Assembly: GCA_027603945.1 (NCBI GenBank) | Contig: JADIIU010000004.1 | Location: forward strand, 62,001 to 126,000 | Direction: 5' to 3' | Source: Terramyces sp. JEL0728 | Lineage: Eukaryota; Chytridiomycota; Chytridiomycetes; Rhizophydiales; Terramycetaceae | DNA length: 64,000 bases | Part shown: positions 719 to 64,000 of the stretch, in pieces | Layout of the letters: every line of letters begins with the position of its first letter | Position numbering within the stretch: position 1 is the first letter of the stretch | The notes under the pieces: model-generated | Database searches by the model: none | Told to the model about the DNA's origin: nothing | Seen by the model: the letters and a program-made list of their open reading frames with translations, nothing else | Position numbers and translations under genes: made by a program

Positions 719-2409
719 ATGCTCGACCTCAAATTCGTAAAGTCTGCCATCGCAGTATGCCCTTACCTCGCAAGAACACCTGTAAACAAACTCAGAAAAA
801 TGTCAACTATGCCTGCTATCCGCAGCGTTGGCATGCCAAATGCTTTGTATGCCAAAGCTTCAAAATGTCCCATGATGAAGAACGCTTTAAAGGGACAAGC
901 AGCTGGCATTTCCACCTCTTCAAAGTGCCCTTATGCTTCTACCGTCGATTCCATTGTCGAGGTTGGCAAACCAGGGACTCTTTCTTCGTTCTTGGCCTCC
1001 AAAAATGAAAATGGTAAATTCAGTTTAATTCTAGAATTAAACAGTGCTCTTTTTACTCAACACCAAAAGAATGGAGTATTTGATTATGAAACTTTTTACC
1101 AGCAAGAGTTGGAAAAGAAAAAGAACGATCGTAGTTATCGCTACTTTAACAATATCAACAGACTTGCAAAGCTCTACCCAACCGCTCATACCGGAACCGG
1201 AGAGCTTGTTACAGTCTGGTGTTCTAACGATTACTTGGGAATGAGCAAACATCCTGAAGTAAACGAAGCCATGAAGTACTATTTGTTTAACCTAGACAAA
1301 CTTTAGACAAGTATGGTGCTGGAGCCGGTGGAACTCGTAACATTGCTGGTAATGCTCAGTTACACTTGACCTTGGAAAAAGAGTTGGCTGACCTCCACAA
1401 AAAGGAAGCGGCTCTTGTGTTCTCTTCGTGTTTTGTTGCAAACGATGCCACCATCTCTACCCTGGCCAGTAAATTACCAGGCTGCGTCATCTTTTCTGAT
1501 TCTTCAAACCATGCTTCAATGATTCAAGGTGTTCGCAACTCTCGTGCCAAGAAACACATTTTCCGTCACAACGATGTCGCTCACTTGGAGTCTTTGTTGC
1601 AGCAGTATGATATTAACACTCCGAAACTCATTGCCTATGAATCTGTTTACTCTATGTGTGGATCCTTGGGGCCAATCAAGGAAATCAATGCTTTGGCTAA
1701 AAAGTACAATGCAATTACTTTCTGTGACGAAGTGCATGCCGTTGGTATGTATGGCAAGACTGGTGCTGGTGTTGCTGAATATGTTGAAGCAATGGCTGGC
1801 ATTGATATTATTACTGGTACCCTTGGAAAGGCATTTGGCGTTGTTGGTGGCTATATTGCTGGATCGGCCGCTTTTGTAGATATGATTCGTTCTTATGCTC
1901 CTGGATTCATCTTTACCACCTCATTGCCTCCTGTCGTTGTTTCTGGTGCTCTTACTTCTATCCGCCACCTGAAAAAATCTCAGGTTGAACGCTCTGGCCA
2001 GCAGTTGAACACTCGTGCTTTGAAAGCAACCTTGCAAGCCAAAGGTATCCCAGTTGTTCCAAACCCATCCCACATTGTTCCGGTTATGGTTGGCGATGCA
2101 GAAACTGCCAAATCTATTTCTGATGAACTCTTGTACAAGTACAAGATCTATGTCCAATCAATCAACTACCCAACCGTCAATGTTGGTGAAGAGCGTTTGC
2201 GTATCACGCCAACTCCTGGCCACCACGAAGCTCATATGCAACACTTGGTAAGCGCTCTTGAAACAATCTGGGAAGAACGTGGATTAAAGTATGTTGAAGA
2301 CTGGGCAAAGGCAGGTTCTCCTCTTGGAATTGGAAGCACTCAGGTCGATCAATTGGTTCGCTCTGCCGACTTGGCTACTCCAAGCCAAGCCGTTGCAGCA
2401 AGTGCTTAA
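719..2409 (+). CDS. HEM1: 5-aminolevulinate synthase, mitochondrial
   Basis: Pyridoxal-phosphate enzyme that condenses glycine with succinyl-CoA, the first step of heme synthesis in the mitochondrial matrix. Exons are 719-1275 and 1296-2409 (556 aa). The N-terminus is basic and presequence-like and carries three Cys-Pro heme-regulatory motifs (VCPY, KCPM, KCPY). The core shows [39 protein letters not shown] and the lysine loop [15 protein letters not shown], closely matching fungal Hem1. The 20-nt intron 1276-1295 (GTACTATTTGTTTAACCTAG) was placed by homology. Removing it gives [12 protein letters not shown], the exact family length. A competing 22-nt GT-AG choice (1285-1306) would break the frame. 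Feedback by heme on import is inferred from the Cys-Pro motifs. Confidence 0.96.
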
Positions 2410-2468
2410 TTGTTGAATGAATTCTGTTTTGCTTGATTTTTTGTTTGTTTTTCGCGTTATAAGATATA

Positions 2469-3703
2469 ATGAATACCACATCGTTTTGGAGCGTAAACTC
2501 ATCGCAGCAGTCAGTAAAGGAGGAGCAAAGAATGAGGTTTCTGCAATTAATGTCAGTATCTCTTCTCGCACAGATAACATTGAACTGGAAATTACCTCAA
2601 AAGCCCAAGTACAGATCCACAGAATAGTCGATAGCCAATATTTCAACTTTGGGATATTCCTAGTAATCATGATCAATATCGTAGTAATTGGGTTCCAAAT
2701 AACCGAATCCGTCAACAATGATTATGGATACTACCTATCTATATCAGATTCAGTTATTATAGGAATATTCTTTTTTGAAGTGTCTCTTCGATTATTCGTC
2801 TGGAGATGGAAGTTTTTCCAAAGTAACTGGCTTAATTTTGGTACGAGGCATCTAACAAGATTTGTCAATGGTAGTATTATCATTGTGTGTGACAATTATT
2901 CCTGGTGTAGTAATAACAGCCCAACAAACCTCAGTGCTAGATCTGCTTAGAATTATCAGAACTTTTAGGCTGATCCGGTCTGTCAGAACATTGCGACACG
3001 TCAATGCAGTCAAATCCATACAAATTATTCTTGAAACTCTGAACCAGTCGCTGCTTGCAATGTCCAACATTTTTCTATTGACGCTACTAATAGGATGTAA
3101 CTTTAGAATTAATTAGACATGTACACGCTGATTGCAGTTTTCCTCTACGGTTCAATCGACCCTTACAATTTCGGTTCAGTTGGCAGAGCGGCAATGGTGT
3201 TTGTACAAGTAGCGTCGTTAGATGTGTGGTCGTACATTTACATGAAGAGCAAATCTCAAGCACCAGACATGTTTTTCGTCCTGGCAACTTTTATTGTAAT
3301 TCAATCATTCGTCCTGTTCAAGTAATATAGATTAACTTAGCCTGCTAACTGCCGTAATCGTCGATAACCTGACCCTGTTGCGAAAGCGACTGACAATAGT
3401 CGCCAACGCCAAGAAACAGGATGACAGCACTCAGTCGGATTTTTCAAAGAAAATGGTAATCAACGGTAACCCTAGAGGAGGAACAAGTCTAAAATCACCA
3501 CAAATTCCGAGAATCAGATGGGAATAGACAACTATTACTCTGGCGATCTGCCTTGGAAGTAGATTTGCTTTAATATTAGAAACAAGGAGATCATGGCCTC
3601 ATATTACATGAATTTGGCTAGCTTGGAGCATAACATGAACTTGTATGATAGACATAATCGTCTGGTTGAGGATTTGATTGCAATTCTAAAGAAAAACAAA
3701 TAG
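2469..3703 (+). CDS. CatSper-like voltage-gated cation channel, single six-helix domain
   Basis: 371 aa after removing six introns: 2537-2556, 2841-2859, 3097-3116, 3322-3340, 3456-3475 and 3559-3579 (19-21 nt). After a polar N-terminus (MNTTSFWSVNSSQQ) come S1 (YFNFGIFLVIMINIVVIGF) and S2/S3. S4 has five arginines at every third position (RIIRTFRLIRSVR). S5 is followed by a pore loop with VASLDVWS and S6 (FIVIQSFVLFNLLTAVIVDNL). The S/TxDxW filter matches CatSper subunits rather than four-domain Cav or Nav channels. The C-terminal tail is helical (MNLASLEHNMNLYDRHN), as in CatSper proteins that form tetramers. The start was chosen because exon 1 joins in frame through a consensus intron; an upstream ATG at 2417 would need no intron but gives a poor N-terminus. 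Calcium selectivity is inferred from the filter aspartate. Confidence 0.85.
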
Positions 3704-3867
3704 GCTTGGCGACAAAATCGGCGATTTGATCAAATAAAACTCGTAATCATCCCTCGAAAGCAGGCTAAAACTTTCTGAAACTCAGATCAACTGTTACAAG
3801 GTCACACCTGTGACAAGTGGCGCAAAGTTTTCCCCTTCATTCTGCCAGTGTTTCTTCTCCAATATTC

Positions 3868-5237
3868 ATGTCGCTTGAACAGAATAATGCGGGAGATACC
3901 CAAACGATTACACTCGATATTCAACTCTTTCCACATTCGGAAACCCCACTACACCGCCAAGACCAAAACCGGCCTTTTTTGTTCACTCCAGTGGAGAAAA
4001 AGGTTGTATATGGGAATATTGTTCAAATTGGCAGAAAAATTGATAGATCAAAAGATACTCACAGAGGTACTACAAGGGAAGACAGAGCTGCGCAAAACGT
4101 TTCAACTGATTACAACCACATGTCATCCGATAAGGACGGAAAGACTAACTATGACTGTGTCGCTTTTAGAAGCAAGGTAGTTAGCAGACACCATGCCGAG
4201 ATTTGGGTTGGAAAGGATGAACAAGTACAGAATCATTAACCATAGCTGTACTTTAGAGATGTTGGAAGTTCTTCGGGAAGTTTCCTCAACCGGCTGCGCT
4301 TATCTCCAAGCGGAAAAGAAAGTAGACCGTATCCGCTAAAATCTGGCGATATTATTCAATTGGGCGTTGATTATCAAGGCCGTCAAGAAGGTGCGAATTT
4401 TCTAATTTAGAAATATACAAAGCTGTGATGATAAAAGTGTTTATAAATTCCAAAAAGGGTCCTGCAAAAGCTGCCAACAAGCAAAAGTATTTTGGATCTA
4501 ATGATAGGCTGAACAAAGCAATGAGAATGCTGTTGTCCGCAATGAATCCGAATGCTCAAGCTGGAGATGATAATGGACCAATTGATTGTTGTATTTGTAT
4601 CAATACTATGGCTCCATTCCAAGCGCTTTTCCTTGCCCCGTGCTCTCACTGCTTCCACTACAAGTGTGTGACTTCTTTGTTGGGGGCTGGGTTTATGTTT
4701 CAGTGTCCATTGTGTAGGCAGGTTGCAAATTTAGAAGCAAGTGTACAAGATGATCTGGATGAAGAGATGCTGGTTGAAGAAGATGATGATTGTAATTCTG
4801 TTTCAGCCGGAAATTCCAGCGGTGAAGAAATAGTAGCCCCAGCTGCAGAACTACAATCTTCTCCAATGAATATACCTGGATCTGAAAGACCTGCAACCAC
4901 TGTATTAGAGCGTATAATTTCACCTTCAACACCTGAAAACCACAGCAACATGCCAATTAACCTTGATAGACATGCTACAGTGCAATTGGTATCAGAACCT
5001 GAACCCGAAGTGCCTGCCGATAACGCAAACGAACTATACGAATCCCTAATTAAGCTCTCATCAATGATGACGGACGGAGATGTAACTATGAACGATCATG
5101 ATCAAATGCAACAAAGTATCACAAAGGTCAAAGCCATCTTGGGGCCGATATTTGGAAATACTGCAGAAATGAGTGTTGCACAGAAAGAAATGCTTGCCAA
5201 TTTACTCTTTCAAAACTCTAATGAACAAGGAAATTAG
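3868..5237 (+). CDS. FHA-RING E3 ubiquitin ligase (Dma1/CHFR-like)
   Basis: 442 aa from exons 3868-4224, 4246-4390 and 4411-5237. The N-terminal FHA domain binds phosphothreonine and shows IVQIGRK, FRSKVVSRHHAEIWV and LYFRDVGSSSGSFLNRLRL, ending near SGDIIQLGVDYQGR. The RING finger (around residues 225-265) has CCICINTMAPFQALFLAPC, then HCFHYKC and CPLCRQ, a complete C3H2C3-type set. The tail of about 175 aa is acidic and probably disordered. This FHA-then-RING order is that of yeast Dma1/Dma2 and Schizosaccharomyces Dma1, which act in the spindle checkpoint and septin/cytokinesis control. The start at 3868 is the first ATG in frame; the frame is open upstream but without ATG. Confidence 0.9.
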
Positions 5238-6496: not shown

Positions 6497-8301
6497 TTAT
6501 AATACCGCCAACTCTTGTTCTAACAAGCCATCTACATACTGGGCCGAGAACTGCTCTATCTCGCCAGATATTTTTGCAACCATATCCTTGATTATATCCT
6601 CTGATAAACTATTTTAACATTGCTTTACCTTTCTATCGCATCCCATGGTGGTTGTGATTCAGAATAGTCAAAGTACACGGACAGCCATTTGCTCCTCTTT
6701 TCCCTATCATTTACAACCCTTTCAAATGTAAATGTGGGCAAAATGATTGTTCTTTGTGTTTTTTCCTTGTCTAGTTCAGTACTAGTCGCTTCTGTCCTAG
6801 TAGTTTTCCTAGGTTGGAATTCAGCATGACTTTCAATCACAATCTCTCTGGGTTCAGTAAAGTCAAACGCGCTTTTCGGTTTCTCTTCGTGCAGCTGGAC
6901 TTTTTCACGATCTGAAGTTGGGTAGGTTTCTTCTAGCGATTCAATAATGATCTGATCTCGATTCTTGTTAGTTTTAGTTTGTGGTGACGGAATACAAAGA
7001 AGATCAAATTCAGTAAGTTCTAGTGGATCTGTTTTTGGATCGTTGTATAAACCAAAGATGTTTTTAGATGCCACCGATATTGATTTCAATTCCGGTTTAG
7101 GCTTAGTAGTTTCAGGATGTGGATCATCAAATGGCTTTTGGATGGAAAGCAATCCATCTTCTTTTGCCTGCTGTATATGATTGGCTAACCTTTGATCAAT
7201 CATATTAGAGGTTTTAATATAATGTTCCTGCACTGACTGTAACATTGGATCTATTTTTGAATTAATCTGAGATAATATCAGATTAATCAATTCGCCGTTA
7301 TCTACTTTTGGTTTCGGAGAAACAGTGTCCAGAGATTTACTGTCCCTACCTCGTCGCAATTTTGGAGTGGCCGGTGCAGAAATATTATCTCTTGAAGATG
7401 AGATTTTTGAAGTGCTGGCACTTTTAATGGATAGATTTTTGGGTCCAAGTCGTTGGGCAGATGGGCTTTTGGTGAGCAGTTTCAAATCCTTTCCTTCTAG
7501 TTTCTGAGGCAAAGGTTTAGGGGATTTAACAGATTTGGGAGGGCTTGATATTTTGCGATTCCTTTCATTCAAGGAATAAATCTCTTTCTTTGCGCGGACA
7601 GAGATAGGCATATGGGCAGTTCGAATAGCAGATTTCCTTTCCAGTTCGCTCCTTAACCGCTTCACGTCATTCAATTCCTTCAGTCGCTGATATTAGGATC
7701 ATTTTACTTGCTTTCGAATGGCATTCATCAATCTAGAGTCACTCTTGTCTCTCATTATTTCAAATTCTGTCTTGTAGTTCTTTTCCTTTGATACCAATCC
7801 AGATCTGCTGACATTTCCACGCACTGGGACCGGAACTTCAAATTCCTTCTTTTCCTTCTTTTTAATCACTGGTGAAGCTTTTCCAAAGAGCAGTGGTGTC
7901 TCTATTTCATCAATTTTTTCAGTTGTTCTTTCTTTTTTCAACCGCTGGTTTTGTATAAATTGCTTAATATCTGATAATGATGGCTGTTTTTCCTCCTTGG
8001 ATTTGAATTTTGGCTCTATTGGCGCTTTCCTCTCTTTCCCTTTTGTAGTTGATTTTGGTTTATCCTCGACCTTTACTTGTTTTTCTGGGGACTTTACTGC
8101 ACTTCTGGGAGTTTGTTCGACTCCTTTAACTGCTGGTTGAGCAGGAGTTGACCGTCCTTGTAAATCAGGAGGCACAATTTGATCTGCCCTGCTACTGTAC
8201 TGTTGAATCTTGCTTAATATCAATGAATGAAGTTTAGAACTGCGACTATTGAGGATCGCAACTTCCTTTTTGGCTAGCTCTTGGGCTCTTGATAAATCCA
8301 T
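6497..8301 (-). CDS. Unrecognised, mostly disordered Lys/Pro/Ser-rich protein
   Basis: 587 aa from exons 8301-7708, 7686-6629 and 6608-6497, with introns 7687-7707 (21 nt) and 6609-6628 (20 nt). Both junctions keep the frame, which supports a real gene. The N-terminus (MDLSRAQELAKKEVAILNSR) is a predicted helix. The middle is basic and low in complexity, with a short helix around RLKELNDVKRLRSELERK. The C-terminus ends in a helical segment, SLSEDIIKDMVAKISGEIEQ then FSAQYVDGLLEQELAVL. The layout resembles scaffold or cytoskeletal proteins, but I do not recognise a family. Confidence 0.75.
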
Positions 8302-8355: not shown

Positions 8356-11008
8356 ATGAGTGAAGAAAAAGCTAGCATGTTTAGGTCAGAGCCTATGGCC
8401 CTCACTCAAGTAAATACTATTAATCGTAGCTGTATATTCCACTGGAAATCGCTCCCCAAACTATTGCGGAATTGGGAGAACTCGGGTTAATGCAATTTAA
8501 CGACGTAAGGATATCTAATACCAGTTAAACCCAAAAGTCAATGAGTTTCAAAGAAGTTTTGTCAATGAAATCAAGAGACTGAACGATTTGGAAAGAAAAT
8601 TACGTTTCTTGATTGCACAGGCAGACAAAGCAGCAGTTACCCTTCATGTGGTGGATCCACTAACTCCATACGCCAGAACACGTTCACAATTGGAAATTGA
8701 TCAATTGGATGCGCAGTTGGGAGAGTTGGAAGCCAGAATTGAGCAAATGAATACTTCTCATGTTAGTTTGAACAAGAGATTTTTGGAGCTCACTGAATTG
8801 CGACATGTGCTACGGGAAACCGCAGTATTTTTCCAAATTGTACATTTACTTTTACAATAGGCTGAATCAAGAGCAGATGAAATTGCAATTGGAGCAAATA
8901 CCAGGGAGGATGCAGGGTTGTTGGCAAATCAGCAACGTGAATCTTTGGATCCTGGTGCTTCCGGCGGCCATACTATTAGCATCGGGTAGTCGTTCGTTAA
9001 TTTAGATTTGTTGCTGGTGTTATTCCAAGAACCAAGATGGGAATCTTTGAAAAGATTTTATTCAGAGCGCTCAGAGGAAACTTATTTATGAACCATGCTG
9101 AAATTCAAGAGCAGATTATTGATCCAGTAACCGATGAATCCGTTTTGAAGAGTGTATTTATCGTTTTTGCCCATGGAAAAGAGTTGCTCAACAAAATTAA
9201 AAAGATCAGTGAAAGTATGGGTGCCACTCTGTATCCTGTCGACGAACATCCAGACAAGCGCCGTGAAAGTGCTCTTGAAGTCATGGCTAGAATCGAAGAT
9301 CTTCGACATGTTCTTGATAACACTAAGGCTGCTAGAAGGGCTGAGCTCAGCAGAGTTGCTGAACATTTGAATCACTGGTCAGTAATTATCGAAAAGGAAA
9401 AGGCTATCCACCACCAAATGAACAAGATGAACTACGATGTCAACCGCAAAGCATTGATTTCGGAAGGGTGGTGTCCAAAAGCCTCCATTGGAGCAATTCA
9501 ATATTCATTGCGTGCTGTCACAGTAAGTTGGTTTTGATTCTAGGAACGAACCGGAACTACTATCCCCCCATTATTGAACGAGCTGCAAACGACCAAAACC
9601 CCTCCAACCTCGCAAAAAACCAACAAGATTACTAATGGTTTCCAAGTAATTGTCGATGCTTATGGTGTTGCCAAGTATGGAGAGGTAAACCCTGGATTGT
9701 TTACAATTATTACATTCCCATTTTTGTTTGCTGTGATGTTTGGCGATTTTGGACATGGGATTTTGGTAACAATGTTTGCTAGTTGGGTTGTGTCAAACGA
9801 AAAGACCTTGGCAAAGAAGAATTACGGAGAGGTAAATAGGTTTTGACATAGATGTGGACCATTGTGTTCGGAGGGAGATACATTATCTTGTTAATGGGAA
9901 TCTTTTCTATCTTCACTGGGTTGGTTTACAATGATATGTTTTCACAATCGATGACCCTGATGCATTCAAGTTATACCTTCAACTATCACAACGACTCTGG
10001 AAAATGGATTGGCTCAAAGCATGAAACTTATGGATTTGGAGTTGATCCTGCATGGCAGACCAGTGACAACTTCTTGATCTTTGCCAACTCTTACAAGATG
10101 AAAATGTCGATTATCCTTGGTGTTGTTCACATGTCGTTCGGTATGTTCCTTCAAGTGTTTAACCACTTGCATTTCCGTAAACCAATGTATATTATCCTGG
10201 AATTCGTTCCGCAAATCTTGTTCTTCTTGTCTCTCTTTGGTTACCTGGTGTTCCTTATTTTCTTCAAATGGCTTACTTTTTATGAAAACCCATCTGAAGC
10301 TCCCGGATTGCTAAACACATTAATTTATATGGTGTTGTCGCCTGGTTCTATTGCCATGCCTCTTTATCCGGGACAGGTATTATTCTACTGATTTTAGGGT
10401 CCAGTACAAGTATTTTTAGTTTTCATTGCATTCATTTCTATTCCATGGATGTTGCTTGGAAAGCCATTATACGAACTGCAAGAACACAAGAGAACTGTTG
10501 GAGCAGGCTATGCACCAACTTCACACGGTACTGAACAAGCTGCAGTATTGGCCGAACAAGGAGAGCAGACTCATGATGATGGACAGGAAGATGATCATGG
10601 TGGCCATGGCGGAGTAAAGAACACTAATTATAGGCGTTTGACTTTTCTGATTTGATGATGCACCAAATGATTCATACGATCGAATTCACTCTCAGTGGCA
10701 TATCCAACACTGCCTCCTACTTGCGTTTGTGGGCATTATCGCTTGCGCACGCACAACTGTCTGATGTATTATGGGAGATGGTATTGTTGCCTGCCCTTAA
10801 TTCTGCTAACGCCTTTGCAATAATGATTGGTTTCTATATGTGGTTCCAGATGACAGTCGGTATCTTGATCTGCATGGAAGGTATGTCTGCATTCTTGCAC
10901 GCTCTTCGTTTGCACTGGGTCGAATTCCAAAGCAAGTTCTATGGAGGTACAGGGATGCAATTCCTTCCATTCTCCTTCCAGGCACTATTCGAAGATCAAG
11001 AAGAATAA
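8356..11008 (+). CDS. VPH1: V-type ATPase subunit a (vacuolar proton pump)
   Basis: 829 aa from nine exons. Introns are 8410-8429, 8505-8524, 8840-8860, 8986-9005, 9523-9543, 9832-9851, 10377-10397 and 10614-10633, all 20 or 21 nt. Subunit a carries protons through the membrane V0 sector. The cytosolic half begins [22 protein letters not shown] and contains [20 protein letters not shown]. The membrane half starts near [20 protein letters not shown]. It includes the helix [20 protein letters not shown], which holds the essential proton-path arginine. The length matches Vph1/Stv1 (about 840 aa). An acidic-His insert ([14 protein letters not shown]) lies just before the last intron. Vacuole versus Golgi location cannot be decided. 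Confidence 0.97.
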
Positions 11009-43811: not shown

Positions 43812-43839
43812 TTCAAGATTGCAAATATCAACTTTTTTA

Positions 43840-44360
43840 TTAGACTCTGCTTGAAATAACTGAACGAGCAATTCCTTCTTGAGTTACTACGTTGCTCTTT
43901 GCATGTTCTTCTCCTCTGATTACTGCACCGCCTACATTAATCAATATTACCATAGGCTAATCCGGATAATGATAATGTAATAGCTGGTACAATTATGCCA
44001 GATCCGCTTTGAATTATTGAACACCATAAAGCTGCTGCGAATCTACTTAAACGATACTTACATTACGTAGCCAATGGCCTTGAATTTCATATTTTCAGAC
44101 AGCGCAATAAGTCTATCAGTTCCTCTAATACACTTTGCCAAAAAAGTAAACTCGACTAATGTGACTACAATACCTTCAGCACTAGATTAAATAGATCTTA
44201 CAGGCAAATAACGGCCCAGACAATCATACTTGAAAATAACGAGGAAATTCCAAAAATAATACATACTAGGTTAGTAATGGGTACGTAGTGCAGATAGCCA
44301 TCCCATCCATTGGCCATAGATACTGAGTTTTCCGGCTTTTAGTTCAGTCAAGAATGACAT
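43840..44360 (-). CDS. Golgi membrane protein Tvp18-like (copy 2)
   Basis: 147 aa from five small exons: 44360-44285, 44265-44202, 44181-44062, 44042-43951 and 43931-43840. Introns are 19, 20, 19 and 19 nt. It contains LSIYGQWMGWLSALLC, VTLVEFTFLAKCIRGTDRLI, AIGYVIFAAALWCSIIQSGS and a tail ending GIARSVISSRV, closely parallel to copy 1 (both end in an S-rich then R-V tail). It has four introns against two in copy 1, so exons were lost or gained after duplication. The stop lies 28 bp before the FAU1 start. Confidence 0.85.
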
Positions 44361-49888: not shown

Positions 49889-52800
49889 ATGTCCATTCAA
49901 TTGGATCATAAAATATTCAACAAGCGAGCATCATTGCTACTCAAGCAATTCAATAGGAGCAGTGAATTCGAAGATGCCCAGTCATTGTTGTTTATCGTTG
50001 GAAGTTCAGATGGTGAGCTGTCATACCAGAAATCCATTGCACTTCAAAATTGGTGGATCGGATATGAATTCCCAGAAACAATCACCCTGGTATTAAAGGA
50101 CAAAATAGTATTTCTCACTTCTGTCAAGAAAGGTTCCTTCTACTGATGATAGGTGCAATTTTGGAATCTCTGCAGAAGGGGGAAAACCTGGTTGATTTTG
50201 AAATCCTTACGAAATCCAAGGATGAAGCACAAAATGCCGCTACATTCAAAAAATTCATCGATTTAATCCCAGATGTAAGATTGATCTAAACAAAGGGGAA
50301 ACAAGGGATCATCCCAAAGGAAAACCCGACTGGGAAACTAGTAACTGAATTCAAGAATGCAGTTACCGCTTCTGGAAGAACATTTGAAACGATTGATGTT
50401 ACTGGTGCCATGGCAACTCTCTTTGCCACCAAAGATGAAGATGAAATTGTAAATGGTGTTTGATTATAGACCGCAACTAAAGCAGCAGCTCAAATTACTT
50501 CATTGACTATGAAGAACTACTTTATCGATTACATGATTAATTTGATTGATCAGGGAAAGAAAGTAAAGCATGAATTGCTTGCAGATTCGTTAGAAAGAAC
50601 CCATACAGATGAACGTAAAAGAGCCAAGCTCAAAGTTCCCGACGATATTAATTGGAAGTTGGTTGAATGGTGTTACCCGCCAATCATTCAATCTGGCGGA
50701 AAATATGATTTGAAGCCAAGTGCACAATCAAATGACCAAAACCTGCACGCTGGAACTATCTTGTGCTCATTTGGTGCCAGATACAAATCATACTGCTCAA
50801 ACATTGGAAGAACTTTTTTGATCAACCCAGAAAAGCAAAAAGAGGAGAATTACGAATTTCTGCTAGAATTGCAAAAGCATTTATTCAATATTATTAGAGA
50901 CGGTGCCCTTTGTTCTGATGTATATAACACAGCTGTTGAATATATCGAAAAGAAGAAGCCAGAGTTGAAGGACTTTTTTGTAAAGAATTGCGGATTTGGG
51001 ACTGGTATTGAATTTAGAGAATCAAACTATTTGCTGGGACCAAAAAATAGCAAACCACTCAAATCAGGAATGGTTTTGAATCTGGTGATTGGGTTCCAAA
51101 ACCTCGAAAACAAAAGCTCTGATCCAAAGAACAAAGTTTATTCGCTATTGTTGGGAGATACCGTTCAAGTTACTGACGACGAACCAACCATCCTTACTGA
51201 AGTCGACAAGGATCTATCAGTTATTTCATACACATTTGGAGAAGAAGATGACGAGGAAACAAAAATCGTTGAAGTTACTTCAAAACGTGGTGCAATTTTG
51301 GATTCTCAATTACGAAAGAATGAAAGTCGTGAAGACTCTCTGAACAAGAGGGCAGCCCATCAAAAAGCTTTGGCAGAAAAGAGACACCAAGAAGGTTTAG
51401 CTAGATACTCTGGTGGGAAAGATGGTGCCAGTGAAAAGCAAGAAGTAACTTTTAAAAAGTTTGAAAGTTATAGAAAAGAAACTCTGATTCCTAAAACAAA
51501 TTCAGATCTGCGAATTGTTGTTGACAGGAAAGCAGAAACTATTGTTCTTCCGATTTATGGACAAGCAGTTCCGTTCCACGTTTCCACATTGAAGAACGTA
51601 TCAAAGAGTGATGAAGGCGACCATGTTTTGTTAAGATTCAATTTCATTACCCCTGGACAAGCTACTGGTAAAAAGGAAGTGCACGTAACTGTATTATAAT
51701 TGTAGGCGTTTGAAGATGCCAATTCCACATTTATCAGATCACTCAGCTACAGAAGTAACGATCTTGCCAGATTCTCTGAAATTTCCAGGGAAATTACAGA
51801 ACTCAAGAAAGATATTCACAAACGCGAGCTTGAAAGAATTGAAAAGGCAGGTTTGGTAGAGCAAGGGGATTTGATGGAAATCAAAGGGCGGCGTCCTATT
51901 AGACTACCTGATGTATACGTTCGCCCTGGCTTGGAAGGAAAGAGATTTGCTGGTGATCTAGAAATCCATTTGAACGGTCTTCGATACCAGTCCTCTGTAA
52001 AGAGCGACCAGAAAATTGATATTCTTTTCTCAAACATCAAGCACTTGTTTTTCCAGCCTTGTGACGGGGAATTAATTATCTTGATCCACATCCACTTGGT
52101 TGATCCAATTATGATTGGTAAAAGGAAGACCAAGGATGTGCAATTCTTTAGAGATGTCCAAGACGCTTCATTTGACGAAACTGGAAACCGTAGAAGAAGA
52201 GCCAACTATGGAGACGAAGATGAGCTTGCACAAGAACAGGAAGAACGTCGCCATCGCCAAATTCTCAACAGGGAATTCCAACAATTCAGCGAAAAGATCT
52301 CTGATGCAGTAAGTTTAATTGGTAATCTTTAGAGCAAGAAATTGGTGGAAGTTGATGTTCCTTTGAGAGAACTTGCATTCCAAGGTGTGCCAAGCCGTCA
52401 ACTTGTGTCTCTTCAACCTACAACTGAATGCTTGGTTCACTTGTCAGACACTCCTTTCTTAGTTATCACATTGAATGATGTAGAAATTGCACACTTGGAG
52501 CGTGTTCAAGTACTTATAGCTAATCTAGTTTGGATTGAAAAACTTTGATTTGGTATTTGTCTTCAAGGATCTCTCTCGCCCAGTTGTGCATATCAATACT
52601 ATCCCGATGACCCAATTGGAAAATGTAAAGGAATGGCTGGATTCTGTTGATATACCATTTACGGAAGGGCCAGTCTCACTTTCTTGGGCTCAGATTATGA
52701 AAACTATCAACGATGACCCTAAATCATTCTTTGAAGAAGCAGGAGGATGGTCGTTCCTTAGACCAGATGGATCTGATCTATCTGAAGTCGAAGATTCAGC

Positions 52801-53052
52801 ATCTGAGTTTGAAGTGGAAAGCGATGCATCTGAAGAAGAATCTGAAAGTGAGGAATCAGCCGCCGAAGACGAATCTGATTACTCTGGAAGTGGCAGTGAA
52901 GAAGAAGAAGACGAGAGTGGTGAAGATTGGGATGAACTGGAGCGCAAAGCAGAACAAGTACATTATTTTTAACCCAGCATGATAACCGTAAACGTAGTCG
53001 TGAAGAAGAACGCGAAGATCGTTCAAAATCCAAGCAGCACCGCAGAAAATAA
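49889..53052 (+). CDS. SPT16: FACT complex histone chaperone Spt16
   Basis: 1005 aa from eight exons. Introns are 50133-50152, 50275-50295, 50449-50469, 51685-51705, 52309-52332 (24 nt), 52510-52528 and 52958-52977. The N-terminal peptidase-like domain lacks a protease active site ([40 protein letters not shown]). Dimerisation and middle domains include [60 protein letters not shown] and [23 protein letters not shown] blocks. The C-terminus is very acidic, then basic ([17 protein letters not shown]). Spt16 with Pob3 reorganises nucleosomes during transcription and replication. AATAAA overlaps the stop codon. Confidence 0.97.
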
Positions 53053-54486: not shown

Positions 54487-54959
54487 TTAAACTGGTAACT
54501 TTGCTCCTGTCAGCTTGTCTACTACAAGTGAAATTCCAGGTAGACTCAGAAGATTTCCAATAATTGGAACTCGTCTTAAAAACCCAATGACCACTGGCAA
54601 GAAATCCCTTGGATCAAATACAAACTACCCAAATAGATTAATGAATCCAAAAGCTTCCACGAGCACTCCAAAAAATGGCCATTTAAGAAATACCAGCAAT
54701 ACTCCAAAAAAGAAACACACTGTTCCCCTGATCTTTTCCTTTCTGGCGAAAAATACAATAGTTTTCTGAAATCCTATAATCAAGGTGATTCCTCCAAGAA
54801 ATAAAATCTGCGTTAAGGAAATATACGTTTCCTATGGCCAGAAATCCTCCATCAAAAAACATTATTATTCCCAGTAGCATGAAAAACACTCCGAATCCTG
54901 TTAGACCTACTCCAATTTCTTGTTAGTTTTAGTTTACTCTGTGTATCTGATAACCACAT
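54487..54959 (-). CDS. GOT1: Golgi transport protein Got1
   Basis: 137 aa (yeast 138) from exons 54959-54938, 54918-54827, 54807-54629 and 54607-54487 (introns 19, 19, 21 nt). It starts MWLSDTQKIGVGLTGFGVFF, has FFDGGFLAIGNILFLGGITL as paired helices, KTIVFFARKEKIRGTVCFF, then NLFGDFLPVVIGFLRRVPII and a short Pro/Leu tail. This is the Got1/Sft2 four-helix fold. Got1 is a COPII-vesicle protein of the ER-to-Golgi pathway. Confidence 0.93.
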
Positions 54960-55010: not shown

Positions 55011-55502
55011 TTATTGGAAACCAAGGCCGACTTTGCGTTTCTTTAGTTGATGGTGAGTAGAATGAGCGCTTTCAAATTCCTTTTCTAGCTGCTTGTTCAC
55101 TTGTTTTTCTTGGGTAATTGCGGATTGGTTATTAGTACTGGTTAGTGATTGGTTTTCTGGTTTCTTTCCTCCTAATAGCCTCAGGAATTTCTATTTTTAA
55201 TAGGGAATACGTTTTTACGGTCTGCATCTCCATCAAAATTAGATTTTGTCCAATCATTCCATGCTTTAGGCTTATCTGCCGCCTTTTCCAGTTTATCTTG
55301 TTTTTCTGTAGGTTCTGGCGATACAGATTTGGTTTCCTTTTTATCTTTCTTGTCCTTTTTATCTTTCTTTTCAGATTTCTCCTTCTTTTCCTTCCTTTCC
55401 TTTCTTTCCTTCTTTTCAGATTTCTCCTTCTTTTCCTTCTTTTTCTTTGTCTTGTTAGAATGCATGAACCTCCTCGTCTTCAGCTTTTCTCTTTTCACCC
55501 AT
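55011..55502 (-). CDS. SMAP-domain nuclear protein (small acidic protein-like)
   Basis: 150 aa from exons 55502-55470, 55450-55211 and 55190-55011 (introns 19 and 20 nt). A long Lys/Glu repeat (KKKKEKKEKSEKKERKERKE...) is followed by the conserved block WNDWTKSNFDGDADRKNKFL then RLLGGKKPE, the SMAP domain. The C-terminus ends KKRKVGLGFQ. The domain occurs in small nuclear proteins of unclear role, some linked to splicing or ribosome assembly. AATAAA overlaps the stop codon. Confidence 0.82.
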
Positions 55503-55534: not shown

Positions 55535-56720
55535 TTATTTAAAGATGCGTTTCCAAATGGATTTCTTTTCTGGTTTGATGGTAGTGTTGCTAGATACTAA
55601 TGGGGCACGCTTTGGCGGTCTATCAGCTGTCTGTGCCTTTGATGGTGGATAATTAACTTGCATATCTCTCTTTTCTTGAATTGTATTTAAACTTTGTTCT
55701 TTTTTCTTGAATAACTTTTGCCACACACCTCCGCTTTTGCGTTTGGTAGATGTTGAATTTGACCTAGAGGGTTGAATACTTACTGTCTGCAGTTGAGATT
55801 CACTCGCTTTCTTATGCAGTGGAGGATGAGGGTCGCCAACCATGGTGGTCATTGAAACTTTGCTGTTTAACGAATGTCCAATCATGGTTGTGGTGGATGT
55901 CTTGTTTTGCAGTGGAAAGCTGGATTCTTTTGGAGAACTTGGTTCGTACATGCCCAGTTCAGACATTGGTCTACGCTTTTGGACATCAGCTTTAGGCAAA
56001 TGAAATCTCTCCTTGTTGAATTCTTTCTGGACTTTTTTGTAATATTGTTCCTTCAAGACATTTTCTTTCTCATGAGGTATCTTTGGCGGTGATTGGGCTG
56101 GCGTTAGTAGTGAATTGGAAGGAGACTGTATTGGAAGTGAAGGTTGCACCGATCCTGCAGTTTCAATTTCTTCAATTTCCTCTTCATCCGAATCAGATCT
56201 ATGTGACATGACATCTGATTTCACAGTTTGTTGACATGACGCAATGATTCCGTCTATCGTCAGTTCAACTTTTGGTTTGTCTGAACTGCAGCATTCAAAA
56301 TAAGCTTGCGCACCGATTTTATCCTGTAATTTTTGTATCTGGATTAGTAGGGGCTACCTCTTGTGGGTCTATCAAGCGATCCAAGTCCTTTTTCAGCCCT
56401 AGCAACATTATGGGCTTGGACTTTGCATAGTAAATTACTTCGGGGTACCATTTCTCTTCTATTTGATGGAACGACTCTGGATCATTCAGCGAAAAGCAAA
56501 TTACAACCTGAGTGATTCCCTCATAAGAGTAGGGCCGTAGCCTGTCGAAAGCGTTGGATCCTGCAGTATCAATGAATTTTAAATCTGAAAATTGCTTTAA
56601 TGAATAGGTATCCTCAATTGTAGGCAGATGGTCTTTTGGAAATGGTAATCCTTGCATCACTGTCAATATCGAGGTTTTGCCTACTGCTTCATTCCCCACA
56701 AAAATAATCCGTCTTCTCAT
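55535..56720 (-). CDS. Atypical Rho-family GTPase with long disordered tail
   Basis: 388 aa from exons 56720-56358 and 56338-55535 (intron 19 nt). The GTPase part (about 1-150) has P-loop GNEAVGKTS, switch I LPTIEDTYS, switch II DTAGSNAFDRLRPYSYEG and LGLKKDL. Relative to Ras, position 12 is Glu instead of Gly, and the residue after DTAG (Q61) is Ser. Both changes reduce hydrolysis, as in the Rnd/RhoH proteins, so it is predicted to stay GTP-bound. The remaining 230 aa are Ser/Pro/Lys-rich with a basic end (KKSIWKRIFK). No CAAX box is present, so membrane binding may use the basic tail. AATAAA overlaps the stop codon. Confidence 0.8.
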
Positions 56721-57088: not shown

Positions 57089-57636
57089 ATGGTAGTAGGT
57101 GGAAAGAAAGGGGGGAAATTCAATAAGACCCAAAGAGGAGTAGAAAGACAATTCACTTCTGAGACTGAATTACAAGCACAAGCACAGCAATTTAAAAGAA
57201 GAGATATGCCCTCTGAATCAGAAGAAGAAAGCGACGATGAACCAGTTGAAAGGAAAGTCGCAAACCCAGCAGCAGCAGTAATCGAAATTTCAAACCCAAA
57301 CAAGCAAAGCTCAAAGCCAATGAAACTCAAAGATTTATCAATTAATGATGGCGAAGAAACGGAGCAACCACAATTGACTCGTAGTGAACGGTATTTTACG
57401 TTAATATTAGTGAAGCTTTGGAAAAGGAACAAAAGAAAGAACATTATTTCAAGCTGCAAATGGAGGGAAAGACTGACCAAGCAAGAGCGGATTTGGCGAG
57501 ATTAGCAATGATTAGAAAGCAAAGAGAAGAAGCCAAGTTGAAGAGAGAAGAAGTGGAAAAGGCTGCCAAGGTTAAAAAGGAAGAGTCACTTAATGCTGGG
57601 AAATCTATCTCTAGCAAAGCATTTGGAAAGAAATAA
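57089..57636 (+). CDS. PDAP1/PP28-like casein-kinase substrate
   Basis: 175 aa from exons 57089-57390 and 57411-57636 (intron 20 nt). The N-terminus ([20 protein letters not shown]) is Gly/Lys-rich, then an acidic ESEEESDDE segment. The conserved block [20 protein letters not shown] then [20 protein letters not shown] and [13 protein letters not shown] is the PP28 domain. Animal PDAP1 is phosphorylated by casein kinase II and associates with ribosomes or RNA. The role here is inferred from the family. Confidence 0.9.
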
Positions 57637-57671: not shown

Positions 57672-59274
57672 TCATAACTTTAAATTGCTTGGATCAAAAT
57701 CATCACCGCAGCCATTCACCAAAACTTTCAGAAGCGCCTTCTTCTTTTGTAAGGATGAATCTGTCAAATCAAACATGGAGCATAGATTAAAGAGCATTTC
57801 CGGGTGTGAGCCAGCCAGAGATGGATTTGACACAATGAAGCTTTCCAAGTAGCTAGATTAATATTGTTTACCTGGCCGCTTGGCTAACATTACCAACATA
57901 TAATTGGCAAATGGCGACATTATTTTTAGCTGGATCATACTCAGGACAAGTGGTAAGCAGCTGTGTAAACTGTTCTAGTGCTTCGCTGTAATTACCAACT
58001 GCAAAGTAATAGAACCCTCTTTGGGATAGTATGAGATCTGGCTGTGGGTATTCTGCCAATTTTGTGAATTCTTCACTCGTTGATAGTCCAAGCATATTCT
58101 CTACTTTTATGAAAATGCTTTTAGCCGATTCCAGATCGCCAGTTTGAAGGTACAATCTACCAAGCATTGACCATAAGAAAGGATCACTATGGCTTTCTTG
58201 TAGTAGCTCATTCAATACGCTAGACGCCAGAATTAGGTCCGGAATTTGTATCAATAAGCAGACTACAAAGAGTACAAGCTGGTAATTTTGGTTGTGGTCA
58301 GGTTTGAAATCCCAAGCTTTTTGCGGATAGATCAATTTGTACAGCCGATGAATACTCTCATGATGGTTGCCTTTTAGTGATGGTAAGTGAGCAATCAAGC
58401 ATAGAAGATCAAAACTAATCATCTGCCCTGTTTGATCTGGGAATACATCAGGATATAGTTCATACAGCATTTCTTGCAAGTCGTTTACTTTAAGTTTATC
58501 CATTTCCACTTGGATAAGGTCGTAAAGCTTCAATTTAATCATGGCTGACCATCTGACATACCAAAGTTGCATGATATCTTTTACATCAGCGGGATGGGTG
58601 GATATAATATCATTTCGGGCAAGCGCTGCAATTTGTCTCCAATTAAAAGATTTGGCAAGTGAATCATATGGGTCTTCAAACTCTAATGCCTGCTCCATTG
58701 TCATTTTAGCGCGGTTTGGTCGTTGTGTTGAGTGAACGTTTCCAAATAATTTTACAACAGTATCATTCAAAGGGTCCAAGTTTGGTATATCCGAAAAATT
58801 AAGAGGATCTATCCATCTTCTCGTCGGCAATTTATAATGGATTGGGTCTATTACTGCAGGCAAAGGTGTTAACCTGGATTTCGGGATTGATGATTTGATG
58901 CTAGATGCTGCAGATAGATTTTCGGTTTTAACTGGAGAAATGTTGATTGGCAATTGTATCGTCGGTAATCGTGTCAGTTGGTCCGGTTCGTTATCCATAT
59001 CCAAGGAATTTTCCGAAGCAATAGTTTCAAATTCAGGTTTGGTTTCTACAGGAGCTGTTTGCTCTTGAATCTGAAACGGATTCTCTTCTTCCTTTCCTTC
59101 CAAACTGATATCTGGTTCCCAAATTGCATCTTTTGAATCCTCTCTCTTTGGAGTTACAACTTTTGGTGAAGAGTTTTCTGAATCCATTAAATCGCCGACA
59201 TCTAGTGTTTTGCGTACTTTGCTTTCTCCCTCCATTCTGAGATTTGTGATTTTAGAGTCAAATGGAAAATTCAT
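57672..59274 (-). CDS. TRAPP complex subunit TRAPPC12-like TPR protein
   Basis: 527 aa from exons 59274-57872 and 57852-57672 (intron 19 nt). A disordered, acidic N-terminus is followed by a conserved block (RWIDPLNFSDIPNLDPLNDT). The C-terminal TPR half has DPFLWSMLGRLYLQTGDLES, RGFYYFAVGNYSEALEQFTQ, KNNVAICQLYVGNVSQAARS and a tail LLKVLVNGCGDDFDPSNLKL, which parallels the end of animal TRAPPC12. TRAPPIII containing this subunit tethers vesicles in ER-Golgi and autophagy traffic. Saccharomyces lacks a clear orthologue. Confidence 0.82.
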
Positions 59275-60824: not shown

Positions 60825-61332
60825 TTTCTATATGTATATTGTGGAAGTGAGGATGCGATTGCTCATTTATAGCCTGCTAGTGGCTCAATCTCCGGGGTAA
60901 TGTGGGCGTATTAAAGAGTAGTCATCAATGTCGACAACACGTAAATTCCACTGAATTGGACAGTGACTGAGAGTTTTAATCACTTGGTGGTTGAAATAGC
61001 TGCTTGCGATTGCATGGAATATTGGACAAGCGCAGAATCACGCACTGTGGAACCAATAACCTGAAACACCCTTGCTGGCCCCAGTTTCATCACATAAATC
61101 CGGCAACTTAACAGGTTTGTGTAACTGGCTTTGTTAATGCAATGAAATCGAGCAAGCAGCGAATGAGTTTGAAACTTAATTGTGCAGCGAGGAGAAAATG
61201 ATGGTCAAGTACGTGTCCTGCGTTGCGCAAACACTTGGCATAAAGTATCGCCTTGGATATAAATACAAACTCAATTGGCAGCTAGTATCCAGTGAAAACT
61301 TTGCCAATCAATCTGGAAAGTTTCAAAAAAAA
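60825..61332. other. Divergent intergenic region chitinase/RRP36
   Basis: About 500 bp. A minus-strand TATAAA at 60866-60871 lies 42 bp before the chitinase ATG. The frame of RRP36 is open without an obvious family match from 61180 up to the chosen ATG. Nothing else recognised. Confidence 0.5.
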
Positions 61333-62019
61333 ATGCAAATATCAAAAAAAGATTTACAGGAATTGTCATTTGGGGATCTTATTGAAGTAAAGCAGACTGT
61401 CGGAACCAGGGCATTTAATTCAGTATACAATGAAAAGGAAGACAAGCAAGAGAAACAGAAAACGAAAACCAAAAGAGCAGATAAAAACATGCCCCAGGAA
61501 ATCACATCAAAAAAGCAAGTATCAAGAAAGAGGAGCTTTGAAATATCGGCTGCACCAAAATATAGAGACCCTAGATTTGAGCCTCTCTCTGGGAAATTGA
61601 ATGAAGGGCTCTTCCAAAGATCGTACGGGTTCATTAGAGAATACCAAGAAACCGAATTGGAAATGTTGAAGAATGATATCCAGAAAGAAAAAGATGTTGA
61701 AAGAAAAGAGGAGCTGAAGAAAACCTTATCGCGATTGACATCTAAAGTCAATGCACAAAAAATCAAAGACAAACAGCAGCAGACAAAGAAGGAGTACAAA
61801 AAGAAGGAACAAGCTCTCGTAAAGGAGGGAAAGAATCCTTACTTCCTCAGACAATGTAATTTCATACTAATCCTAGCCGAATTGAAAAAGAAGGAATTGG
61901 TTGACAAATACAAATCGATAGGCAAAGGAGCTAATTTGGAAAAGATTCTGGAGAAAAGGAGAAAGAAGAATGCCGCAAAGGAGCATACAAGGATCCCTAC
62001 AACCCGGCGTTCTGGTTAA
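61333..62019 (+). CDS. RRP36: rRNA biogenesis protein Rrp36
   Basis: 221 aa from exons 61333-61855 and 61877-62019 (intron 21 nt). It starts MQISKKDLQELSFGDLIEVK and shows the family blocks APKYRDPRFEPLSGKLNEGL, SYGFIREYQETELEML, NPYFLRQSELKKKELVDKYK and EKRRKKNAAKEH. Rrp36 is a nucleolar factor for early pre-18S rRNA cleavages. The frame is open upstream to 61180 with another ATG, but the segment between looks non-conserved, so 61333 is preferred. AATAAA overlaps the stop codon. Confidence 0.92.
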   Translation: MQISKKDLQELSFGDLIEVKQTVGTRAFNSVYNEKEDKQEKQKTKTKRADKNMPQEITSKKQVSRKRSFEISAAPKYRDPRFEPLSGKLNEGLFQRSYGFIREYQETELEMLKNDIQKEKDVERKEELKKTLSRLTSKVNAQKIKDKQQQTKKEYKKKEQALVKEGKNPYFLRQCNFILILAELKKKELVDKYKSIGKGANLEKILEKRRKKNAAKEHTRIPTTRRSG

Positions 62020-62438: not shown

Positions 62439-62467
62439 AAAGCGCTAAAAAAACCTGCCCCATTGAA

Positions 62468-62893
62468 ATGCAATTCACTAAATTCGCTTTGTTCGTTGCC
62501 GCTGTTTTTGCAAGAGGACCTGGAGGACTTGCTGCCGACCCATCTGGTACTGACATTGGAATCAAGACTGCTACTTCTGCAGGTACCAGACCTACTGATG
62601 TTCCAGCTAGTGGAAAGACTGAACAAACCAGCACTCTTCCACCAGCACAGACTTCTAGCGTTGACATCCCAATCATCACTTCAGCTCCATCCGCAACCAC
62701 TACCCAGGGTGGAAAGGTTGAAACCAGTGCTCCAGTAACCAAATTCACCACTGAATTCGTTACCACCGACATTATTATTTCATCCACCCTCGTCCACACT
62801 GTTGTTCCTAAAGTCGTTCCAATTCTTTCTGGAGCTGCTTCCTACTCTGTTGTTGGTGCTGCCGCTGCTGCATTCGTTGCTTTGGCTTTGTAA
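62468..62893 (+). CDS. Small Ser/Thr-rich GPI-type cell-wall protein
   Basis: 141 aa, single exon. Signal peptide MQFTKFALFVAAVFA. The middle is rich in Thr, Ser, Pro and Ala (SAGTRPTDVPASGKTEQTST) and likely O-mannosylated. The end is a small-residue cleavage region (LSGAASYSVVGAAAAAFVALAL) fitting a GPI-anchor signal. It has no cysteine and no enzymatic domain. Structural wall mannoprotein by inference. Confidence 0.8.
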   Translation: MQFTKFALFVAAVFARGPGGLAADPSGTDIGIKTATSAGTRPTDVPASGKTEQTSTLPPAQTSSVDIPIITSAPSATTTQGGKVETSAPVTKFTTEFVTTDIIISSTLVHTVVPKVVPILSGAASYSVVGAAAAAFVALAL

Positions 62894-62973
62894 GTTGATA
62901 GATAAATAAATTCACGAATAACTTTATTGCATTCAACAATTGATTTGAATTTCATGTCATTGGTATTAACTTG

Positions 62974-64000
62974 CTAGTCGGTTCGTGTATATCCGCTTTG
63001 CTCTCGTATAAGATCTGCAATGACCTTATAACCATACTTTACGGCATCAGTGTAGGCTAATGTTACTGTCTATGTACCTGTTCCCTCCCACCGATCTTTG
63101 GCGTTCACATCCACCTCAGGATACTTTAACAGACACTTGACCATTTCTGTTTTCCCACTACATGCAGCCAGATGCAGCAAAGTTCTCCCGTCGTAATCAC
63201 TAGCGCCTGGCGAAACTCCACCTCGAATTAGCCGTAGCAGTTCCATCAAATCTCCTTCCGCTGCCGCATTAAATGCCGCCATCTTTCCTTCTCTCTCTGT
63301 AGCTATCTTGTTCAATCTTGGATTAACCCTAATTCTAGTTGCAGTGGGTTTTAGCGAATCGAAATTGTGGAAAATGAATTCATCCACCAGTCTAGTAAAG
63401 AATTCTACTCCCCGCACCGAATTTCCAATCGAATCTAGTGGTGGAGAGTATATACAGATGCAGCCAAAGTCGGGTATCACTGCATATATGCTGCCCGACA
63501 CGCCTGATTTTGCCGGTATCCCAACTCGAAATGCCCATTCACCACTATAATCATATAGACCGCAAGAATACATCAAGGAAAGACAATCCCTACAAGTTCT
63601 GGATTTAAGGACCTTTGTTCCCGTCGTAGGACATTCGCCCATATTTGCCAATGTAGCACCAGCAATTGCAAGCTTGTTACAATCCGTTTCTAACGAACAG
63701 CATTGAAAGTAAAAATCCAGAGTTTCATTCAAATCAGTGCCTTCTGGAAATGCTTTTTTCCCTTGCATCATGTATCCCAAACAAAAGTTACTATCCGCAT
63801 GCATCTTTTCCGATAGATATACTATATTAGAAAAGCCCCATTTCAATCCTCCACTCATTTTGCATAGCTGCTCATTGACATATTGGAATTTCTCGTATAT
63901 CGGCTCATTTGATTTGATTAGAGAGCATGCCATGATCGCGCCTAAGTTAATATCGAGTACCAGAGTTAATCATTGGATTGTGTGGTCTGTTTTTAGAATT
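62974..64000 (-). CDS. Glutaminase with ankyrin repeats, cut by the right edge
   Basis: C-terminal part of a GLS-type glutaminase (glutamine to glutamate and ammonia). Introns are 63942-63960 (19 nt) and 63057-63077 (21 nt). Visible motifs: RPHNPMINSGAIMACSLI, NFCLGYMMQGKKAFPEGTDL, YFQCCSLETDCNKLAIAGAT, MYSCGLYDYSGEWAFRVGIP and AKSGVSGSIYAVIPDFGCIC, all conserved in the serine-beta-lactamase-like fold. Ankyrin repeats follow (GRTLLHLAACSGKTEMVKCL), then KDRWEGTAYTDAVKYGYKVI. That is the layout of animal GLS1/GLS2. The start lies beyond the window. Confidence 0.92.

Follow-up and report, generated by a model that had tools for sequence, protein, structure and literature searches.

Does a fungal nucleus carry spliceosomal introns of about 20 nucleotides (nt) as a rule, and if so, how are they built? 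This question is raised by a 64,000-nt stretch of DNA from the chytrid Terramyces sp. JEL0728 (hereafter the window: bases 62001-126000 of contig C4, 313,492 bp), in which coding sequences are interrupted again and again by segments of 19-24 nt, far below the usual size of fungal introns. In an earlier interpretation of the letters alone (the sequence-only reading), these segments were considered a genome-wide class of ultra-short introns in a fungus. The fungal host is borne out by the encoded proteins, which match Terramyces sp. JEL0728 (Terramycetaceae, Rhizophydiales, Chytridiomycota). Judged by their sequence, the segments are almost certainly U2-type GT-AG spliceosomal introns shrunk to near-minimal geometry, and they occur in every part of the Terramyces genome that was sampled.

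The total sample of 264 kb consisted of the window and 20 stretches of 10 kb, each from a separate other contig of the assembly (15,016,339 bases in 231 contigs). Genes were predicted by a Viterbi gene finder with long open frames as the training set, in the following versions: (i) a flat version that permits any GT..AG segment of 10-120 nt at one cost and without a motif score, (ii) an intermediate version with a motif term and still flat lengths, (iii) the final version with the motif term and a learned length bonus, and (iv) an any-end variant that permits all 16 dinucleotides, penalised, at either intron end. As a sham control, the flat version was rerun with the end pairs TG..GA, CT..AC, GA..TG, AG..GT, and GC..AG. 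In addition, GTA, [CT]TAA[CT], and AG were counted at every spacing on both strands without use of gene models (the model-free map). The coding score of an early pass, derived from long frames of the window only, was weak.

The intron length distribution, which the sequence-only reading proposed to examine, has a peak at 19-22 nt that is absent with the sham pairs. The flat motif-free finder placed 110 of its 230 introns in this range, compared with 10 of 224 for TG..GA, 8 of 209 for CT..AC, 9 of 227 for GA..TG, 13 of 204 for AG..GT, and 8 of 195 for GC..AG. With the motif term and flat lengths, 206 of 253 introns were 19-22 nt long (210 at 18-24 nt), and in the final models 278 of 290 measured 18-24 nt. 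The same class is seen in the raw letters of the window, where strings of the form GT[AG]..[CT]TAA[CT]..AG occur 24, 30, and 14 times at 19, 20, and 21 nt versus 6.5, 6.6, and 5.9 times in first-order Markov simulations (3.7-, 4.6-, and 2.4-fold). At 18 and 22 nt there is one such string each, which is under chance; at 23 nt there are 8 versus 5.8 simulated (1.4-fold), and scattered other lengths reach at most 1.8-fold.

In the window, the final models contain 84 introns in 25 of 29 scored genes, of which 81 are 19-24 nt long and the others 46, 106, and 115 nt. The earlier count of about 100 introns in some 35 genes is plausible, as the present list omits some genes (e.g., GOT1). The single 71-nt intron named earlier as an exception could not be located; a rough initial run had made two calls of 71 nt, which are gone from the final models. 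Several longer calls have other interpretations. The 106-nt (2402-2507) and 115-nt (31455-31569) calls were interpreted as joins between adjacent genes, and the 46-nt call (43878-43923) is doubtful, being interpreted as a fusion of two unrelated Pfam domains. In the final pass, a 130-nt call (47517-47646) was resolved as two 20-nt introns and an 89-nt call ending at 22320 as one 20-nt intron.

Within the sample, the claim of a genome-wide class holds. In the final models, the number of 19-22 nt introns ranges from 1 to 19 in the 20 stretches on other contigs, and 18 of these stretches show the class with the flat motif-free finder. At 13 loci excluded from training, introns of 19-22 nt made up 44 of 46 when the length bonus was used and 17 of 36 calls of the flat finder. 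Across the final models, 83 of 106 scored genes hold a total of 278 introns of 17-26 nt, a density of 1.56 per coding kb and 1.05 per sampled kb. Extrapolation of the latter value to 15 Mb gives an estimated genome total of 10,000-15,000 short introns.

Comparison of the short introns revealed a uniform anatomy. When all dinucleotides were permitted at a penalty, the acceptor of the 19-22 nt introns was AG in 214 of 215 and the donor GT in 207 of 208, the exceptions being one GG acceptor and one GC donor. A perfect YTRAY branch motif near the AG is present in 86 of 110 introns of 19-22 nt called without motifs, versus 18 of 90 calls of at least 30 nt. In the motif-scored set (194 short introns from genes scoring at least 15), a branch-like pentamer was found in 193 and a perfect one in 153. 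The branch A of this set is nt 14 in 95 introns and nt 15 in 77 (172 of 193), and it is followed by a tail of 5 nt in 86 and of 6 nt in 90 (176 of 193), both distributions being partly selected by the motif scoring. The model-free map has the same four peaks: the combinations of branch A position and tail (14,5), (14,6), (15,5), and (15,6) occur 64, 47, 33, and 28 times, with an off-peak mean of 1.65. A shoulder of 15 lies at A=15/tail 4, values of 3-6 surround the block, and there are strays of 7 at A=14/tail 10 and 8 at A=9/tail 11. Branch position and tail length are independent of each other both in the motif-scored set (46/45/34/35, Fisher p=1.0) and in the model-free cells (64/47/33/28, p=0.75). 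Thus, intron length is the sum of two independent two-state spacings: the branch A lies 13-14 nt from the donor G and the intron ends 5-6 nt beyond that A, which yields introns of 19, 20, or 21 nt. These values put numbers on the earlier statement that donor, branch, and acceptor nearly touch.

The map also bears on a trivial origin of the segments, namely assembly or sequencing errors whose short spurious insertions break frames. The assembly is a draft in 231 contigs, and one site in SMC1 has TTG where TAG is expected. Errors, however, would not bring GT, YTRAY, and AG at fixed spacings, would not peak at 19-22 nt across the sampled stretches, and would not be shared, apart from a 1-nt difference, by two near-identical copies of one locus, as described below. 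We consider this origin extremely improbable.

The donor is GTA, with A at position +3 in 91% of the short introns of the 264-kb sample, and it is weak beyond (+4 A 60%, +6 T 59%). At +5, T (44%) prevails over G (21%), unlike in the common GTAAGT. In the motif-scored set, the stretch from donor to branch is rich in T. Of 212 introns, 192 have 2 or 3 nt separating the branch pentamer from the AG, 19 have 1 or 4 nt, and one has 6 nt, in line with the 1-6 nt given earlier. A gap of 2-3 nt leaves no room for a polypyrimidine tract between branch and AG, a feature that is common though not universal in U2-type introns, and none was found there.

The ends of the segments bear on their possible elimination from DNA. 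The internal eliminated sequences of ciliates can be as short as a few tens of nt and are bounded by TA. Their size is compatible with that of the Terramyces segments, but the latter end in GT..AG instead of TA, and their branch motif fits the U2 small nuclear RNA (snRNA) found in the genome. To our knowledge, no DNA elimination of such kind exists in fungi, and this explanation is as improbable as sequence errors. Another possibility is translational bypassing, in which the mRNA would retain the segments and the ribosome would skip them, as with the mitochondrial byp elements of some yeasts. Bypassing, too, is compatible with segments of a few tens of nt, whereas neither a GT donor nor a branch consensus located 2-3 nt ahead of AG is known to play a part in it; of all explanations considered, we regard this as the least probable.

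Where tested, removal of the segments in silico restores conserved protein sequence. In VPH1, all eight junctions reproduce family sequence that is conserved in nine relatives, two of which (P0004 and P0007) are gapped at some sites, and the V-ATPase subunit a predicted after splicing shares 93% identity with a cluster named Boothiomyces sp. JEL0866. Two junction motifs named earlier were confirmed: in DIS3, QVGV and HIADVSHF join at 37297-37316, and in GOT1, MWLSDT..QKIGVGL spans a 19-nt intron with its donor at 54937 on the minus strand. The spliced SMC1 is 100% identical to the deposited Terramyces sp. JEL0728 protein, and all five short introns of our first SMC1 model are those implied by that protein. 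Together, GT..AG ends, the YTRAY branch, the spacings, and the conserved junctions support the earlier assignment of the segments to spliceosomal introns.

The C-terminal stretch of SMC1 was mishandled by both the deposited protein and our first model. In the region 25910-26661 of the window (minus strand), the deposited protein is devoid of a conserved C-terminal stretch found in Boothiomyces and Globomyces proteins; probably short introns were swallowed into longer ones, as in our first model. According to the relatives, this stretch contains one more 19-nt intron (26525-26543) as well as a 20-nt intron ending in TTG (26397-26416). The latter, found through homology only, represents a rare GT..TG intron or, alternatively, an error in the sequence. 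In annotated Boothiomyces and Globomyces proteins (P0122 and P0123 for SMC1, P0004 for VPH1), 5-8 residues are absent beside intron positions. These gaps look like too-long intron calls, and introns of Boothiomyces and Globomyces may be ultra-short too.

Further evidence comes from two stretches, L022 (contig C199) and L023 (contig C111), that have 3.1 kb in common at 98.9% identity, with two genes and six introns; they are either haplotype copies or a recent duplication and lend themselves to a comparison of intron with exon change. Their exons differ by 15 substitutions and no indels, with both proteins unchanged. The introns show no substitutions, but two of them, owing to a single 1-nt indel each, are 21 nt long in one copy and 20 nt long in its counterpart. 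The remaining 795 nt contain 5 substitutions and 4 indels. The contrast between 2 indels in 121 intron nt and none in 2190 exon nt (Fisher p=0.003), although from one locus pair, is the pattern expected of sequence that is removed.

The segments, their motifs and spacings, and the conservation of the joined frame where tested were observed directly, as were genes for U2, U5, U2AF65, and SF1. From frame and family conservation we infer that the segments would be removed from the transcript by the major spliceosome. The assembly search detected U2 snRNA with 140 bits, matching the whole model, and U5 snRNA with 86 bits over all 117 model positions. U2, located on contig C70, carries GTGTAGTATC with an intact branch-pairing GTAGTA motif. 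ARAGORN and Rfam at gathering scores gave no match within the 64-kb window. U2AF65 has its RNA recognition motifs (RRMs) and reaches 334 bits, against a curated cut-off of 310, once four 19-20 nt introns of its own gene are spliced out; read through unspliced, it falls into two pieces of 251.7 and 27.9 bits. SF1 has the SF1-HH and KH domains and zinc knuckles, in a gene model with a 63-nt intron that is doubtful. Three RRM matches and six short introns were also found for an RBM39-type protein. Among the components that the sequence-only reading had singled out (U2AF, SF1, U2, and U6), U2, U2AF65, and SF1 are thus present, whereas U6 was not found in the assembly.

Several observations weigh against the proposed class or its extent: (i) in two of the 20 other stretches (L003 and L012), the flat finder called no introns of 19-22 nt; (ii) the flat finder placed 101 of its 230 calls at 23-120 nt, where they form no peak and the controls scatter alike, and some of these calls may be real longer introns; (iii) 12 of the 290 introns in the final models exceed 24 nt; (iv) 21-nt introns with no in-frame stop are under-called by the finder; and (v) the route that found U2 and U5 found no U1, U4, or U6 genes in the assembly, an empty result that does not equal absence. 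Looser passes gave calls of 23-150 nt that were scattered and peakless.

That U1, U4, and U6 are missing from the results may be due to a gap in the assembly, to divergence, or to split genes. U6 is the most conserved snRNA, and for it an assembly gap or an intron-split gene seems the likeliest reason. Two U6 candidates in L022 and L023 (27 bits) were rejected, being a protein-coding exon beside a 20/21-nt intron with ACC where U6 has AGC. A U6 pattern match in contig C59 sits in an open coding frame and was likewise dismissed.

The under-calling of stop-free introns also affects the length classes. Of the called introns whose length is a multiple of three (3n), 45 of 47 hold an in-frame stop; for the two remaining length classes, the counts are 39 of 63 and 48 of 84. 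Strict motifs inside predicted exons number eight at 21 nt, compared with 0-3 at any of the remaining 3n lengths between 15 and 45 nt. A deficit of stop-free 3n introns is reported for ciliates. Here, the apparent deficit was dropped as uninterpretable because the finder takes stop-free 3n introns for coding sequence.

If the segments are spliced, the following pathway may be proposed. The donor GTA would be used together with a YTRAY branch A at nt 14 or 15, with which U2 would pair in the usual manner, and the intron would end 5 or 6 nt later. The product would be a 14-15 nt lariat carrying a tail of 5-6 nt, and the AG would be recognised through its nearness to the branch, not by way of a polypyrimidine tract. 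A structural study of the human B complex estimated that, with its structure unaltered, 5' splice site and branch must lie at least about 52 nt apart (PMC6692369). Since donor and branch are 13-14 nt apart in Terramyces, the early complexes would have to assemble in turn, with U1 and U2 binding successively, or more compactly, with shorter and closer helices.

A more far-reaching interpretation has, in our estimate, about an even chance of being right. Introns would be read by two molecular rulers that act independently, one setting the donor-branch distance at 14/15 nt and the other the branch-acceptor distance at 5/6 nt, with the polypyrimidine tract unneeded, the A and B complexes built unlike the human ones, and the role of U2AF and SF1 changed. 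In this view, the human early complex holds the U6/5' splice site and U2/branch helices at a distance that a 13-14 nt link could not span. U2AF and SF1, whose main domains are kept, would serve in a changed role, for example by binding the U-rich donor-branch stretch or as an AG sensor only.

Splicing of these introns might also be mostly inefficient or regulated, with many introns retained as a switch. In Encephalitozoon cuniculi, 30 of 37 introns (22-76 nt) are spliced in less than half of the transcripts (PMC3629993), and in Terramyces 192 of 194 called introns would shift the frame or add an in-frame stop if kept, a count in which stop-free 3n introns are under-represented. At about 1.6 introns per kb of coding sequence, with 8 in VPH1, 7 in SPT16, and 6 in SMC1, poor removal would cripple such genes, and we regard widespread retention as unlikely, though less so than the origins discussed above.

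The genes and introns of the window are listed in Table 1. In the proteasome beta subunit gene, the first intron starts right behind the ATG start codon.

Table 1. Genes and short introns in the window (window positions; introns in transcript order; lengths in nt in parentheses where given)
Feature	Span	Strand	Introns	Basis or remark
HEM1 (5-aminolevulinate synthase)	719..2409	+	1014-1034 (21), 1276-1295 (20)	named by eye
Ion-channel-like gene	to 3703	+	2841-2859, 3097-3116, 3322-3340, 3456-3475, 3559-3579	named by eye; HEM1 model runs into it
FHA + RING protein	3868..5237	+	4225-4245, 4391-4410, 4487-4507	domains by eye
Coding gene	6497..8301	-	7687-7707, 6609-6628	final models
VPH1, V-ATPase V0 subunit a	8356..11008	+	8410-8429, 8505-8524, 8840-8860, 8986-9005, 9523-9543, 9832-9851, 10377-10397, 10614-10633 (20 or 21)	
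Coding gene	12586..13370	+	12731-12750	final models
Coding gene	13487..14656	+	13644-13662, 13917-13935, 14363-14381 (19 each)	final models
Coding gene	14668..16167	-	15251-15270, 15077-15098	final models
Proteasome beta subunit	16220..16914	+	16223-16243, 16429-16447, 16556-16575, 16751-16770	Pfam Proteasome, residues 7-189 of 204
ABC transporter, MRP/YCF1 type	21926..25878	+	22301-22320, 22777-22797, 24369-24389, 25475-25495	named by eye
SMC1	25910..29595	-	29527-29545, 29125-29144, 28874-28893, 27579-27597, 26642-26661, 26525-26543	first five agree with deposited protein
Probable SMC1 intron (20)	26397..26416	-		usual donor, branch, and spacing; TTG end, not TAG; single exception, sequence error possible
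Coding gene	29899..31936	+	29922-29940, 30173-30191, 31345-31363	final models; 115-nt call read as gene join
Coding gene	32125..33886	+	32332-32352, 33754-33772	final models
Coding gene	34142..35714	+	34518-34537, 34905-34924, 35600-35620	final models
DIS3/Rrp44	35874..38713	+	37297-37316, 38259-38277, 38426-38445	Pfam RNB unbroken, residues 437-766
Cg6151-P family, then 5-formyltetrahydrofolate cyclo-ligase	43224..44360	-	44266-44284, 44182-44201, 44043-44061, 43932-43950	two genes in one model
Coding gene	45442..47075	+	45866-45887, 46129-46148, 46267-46286, 46809-46829	final models
ANKRD13-family protein	47181..48849	+	47517-47536, 47627-47646, 47756-47774, 47897-47917, 47987-48006	
Band_7 protein	48913..49792	-	49646-49665, 49410-49429, 49225-49245	prohibitin by eye
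SPT16 (FACT subunit)	49889..53052	+	50133-50152, 50275-50295, 50449-50469, 51685-51705, 52309-52332 (24), 52510-52528, 52958-52977	by eye
GOT1 intron (19)	54919..54937	-		junction MWLSDT..QKIGVGL; gene name from the sequence-only reading
Coding gene	55011..55465	-	55191-55210	final models
Small-GTPase-like gene	55535..56720	-	56339-56357	named by eye
Coding gene	57089..57636	+	57391-57410	final models
Coding gene	57672..59274	-	57853-57871	final models
Coding gene	61198..62019	+	61856-61876	final models
Coding gene	62974..63973	-	63942-63960, 63057-63077	final models

With its 15-Mb genome, this fungus would allow direct tests of how small a spliceosome substrate can be and of whether a polypyrimidine tract is needed, and Terramyces is a promising organism in which to explore the lower size limit of introns. 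Gene annotation in Terramycetaceae needs care, given that the deposited SMC1 is without its conserved C-terminal stretch at a 19-nt intron and the TTG-ending one.

Because the deposited SMC1 implies short introns, the raw fact is already present in a database. Among the matches listed in a literature search that covered few subscription journals, none dealt with introns of about 20 nt in a chytrid or with intron length in Terramycetaceae, and a search of PMC13391722 and PMC11797018 for "intron" gave nothing on length. The passages covered of a survey of 644 fungal genomes give a mean of 63 bp for Cryptococcus neoformans and do not mention a class of about 20 nt (PMC8476143). The "ultra-short" introns described in C. 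neoformans are those below 60 nt, with a mean intron of 56 nt and some introns binned at 20-40 nt (PMC11913375); this fungus is likewise rich in short introns, the bulk of which are two to three times as long as those of Terramyces. Human short introns with truncated tracts use SPF45/RBM17 instead of U2AF (PMC8363638), and human short introns also depend on Smu1-RED (PMC6692369). Both cases show that short introns put a strain on U2AF binding and B-complex activation, yet the human introns are tens of nt longer.

The introns of the 264-kb sample belong with the ultra-short class of the Stentor and nucleomorph type, as nearly all of them are at most about 25 nt long and have a fixed branch position. 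To the nucleomorphs and ciliates that the sequence-only reading listed as known cases of about 20 nt, microsporidia (PMC3629993) and Trichomonas, which has 23-nt introns (PMC12316389), should be added. Introns of Paramecium and Nyctotherus are about 25 nt long (PMC5014332). The 37 introns of E. cuniculi (PMC3629993) resemble those of Terramyces in being short and in having strict donor and branch motifs, in a fungal relative; however, E. cuniculi is a parasite with few introns and a reduced spliceosome, whereas Terramyces has about one intron per kb sampled. The nucleomorph of Bigelowiella natans, with 865 introns of 18-21 nt, is alike in size range, GT donor, and the many introns per genome, but it is the 373-kb remnant nucleus of an endosymbiont, with shrunken U1 and U5 and, in the passages covered, no obvious motif at the 5' exon border beyond GU (PMC6461891). 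Terramyces, in contrast, has a fungal nucleus of 15 Mb, a full-model U5 match, a GTA donor, and a strong YTRAY branch.

The ciliate Stentor coeruleus has introns of 15-16 nt with the branch A at nt 10 or 11 and a 5-nt tail (PMC9505925). The near-fixed length, the fixed branch position, and the short tail (5 nt versus 5-6 nt) are common to both organisms, whereas Stentor introns are about 4-5 nt shorter, nearly all of it between donor and branch, and their branch consensus is weak, unlike the strong one of Terramyces. The earlier statement that the spliceosome here works at its physical limit is therefore too strong. In the papers covered, introns of about 20 nt are found in ciliates, in algal nucleomorphs, and as a few introns of parasites.

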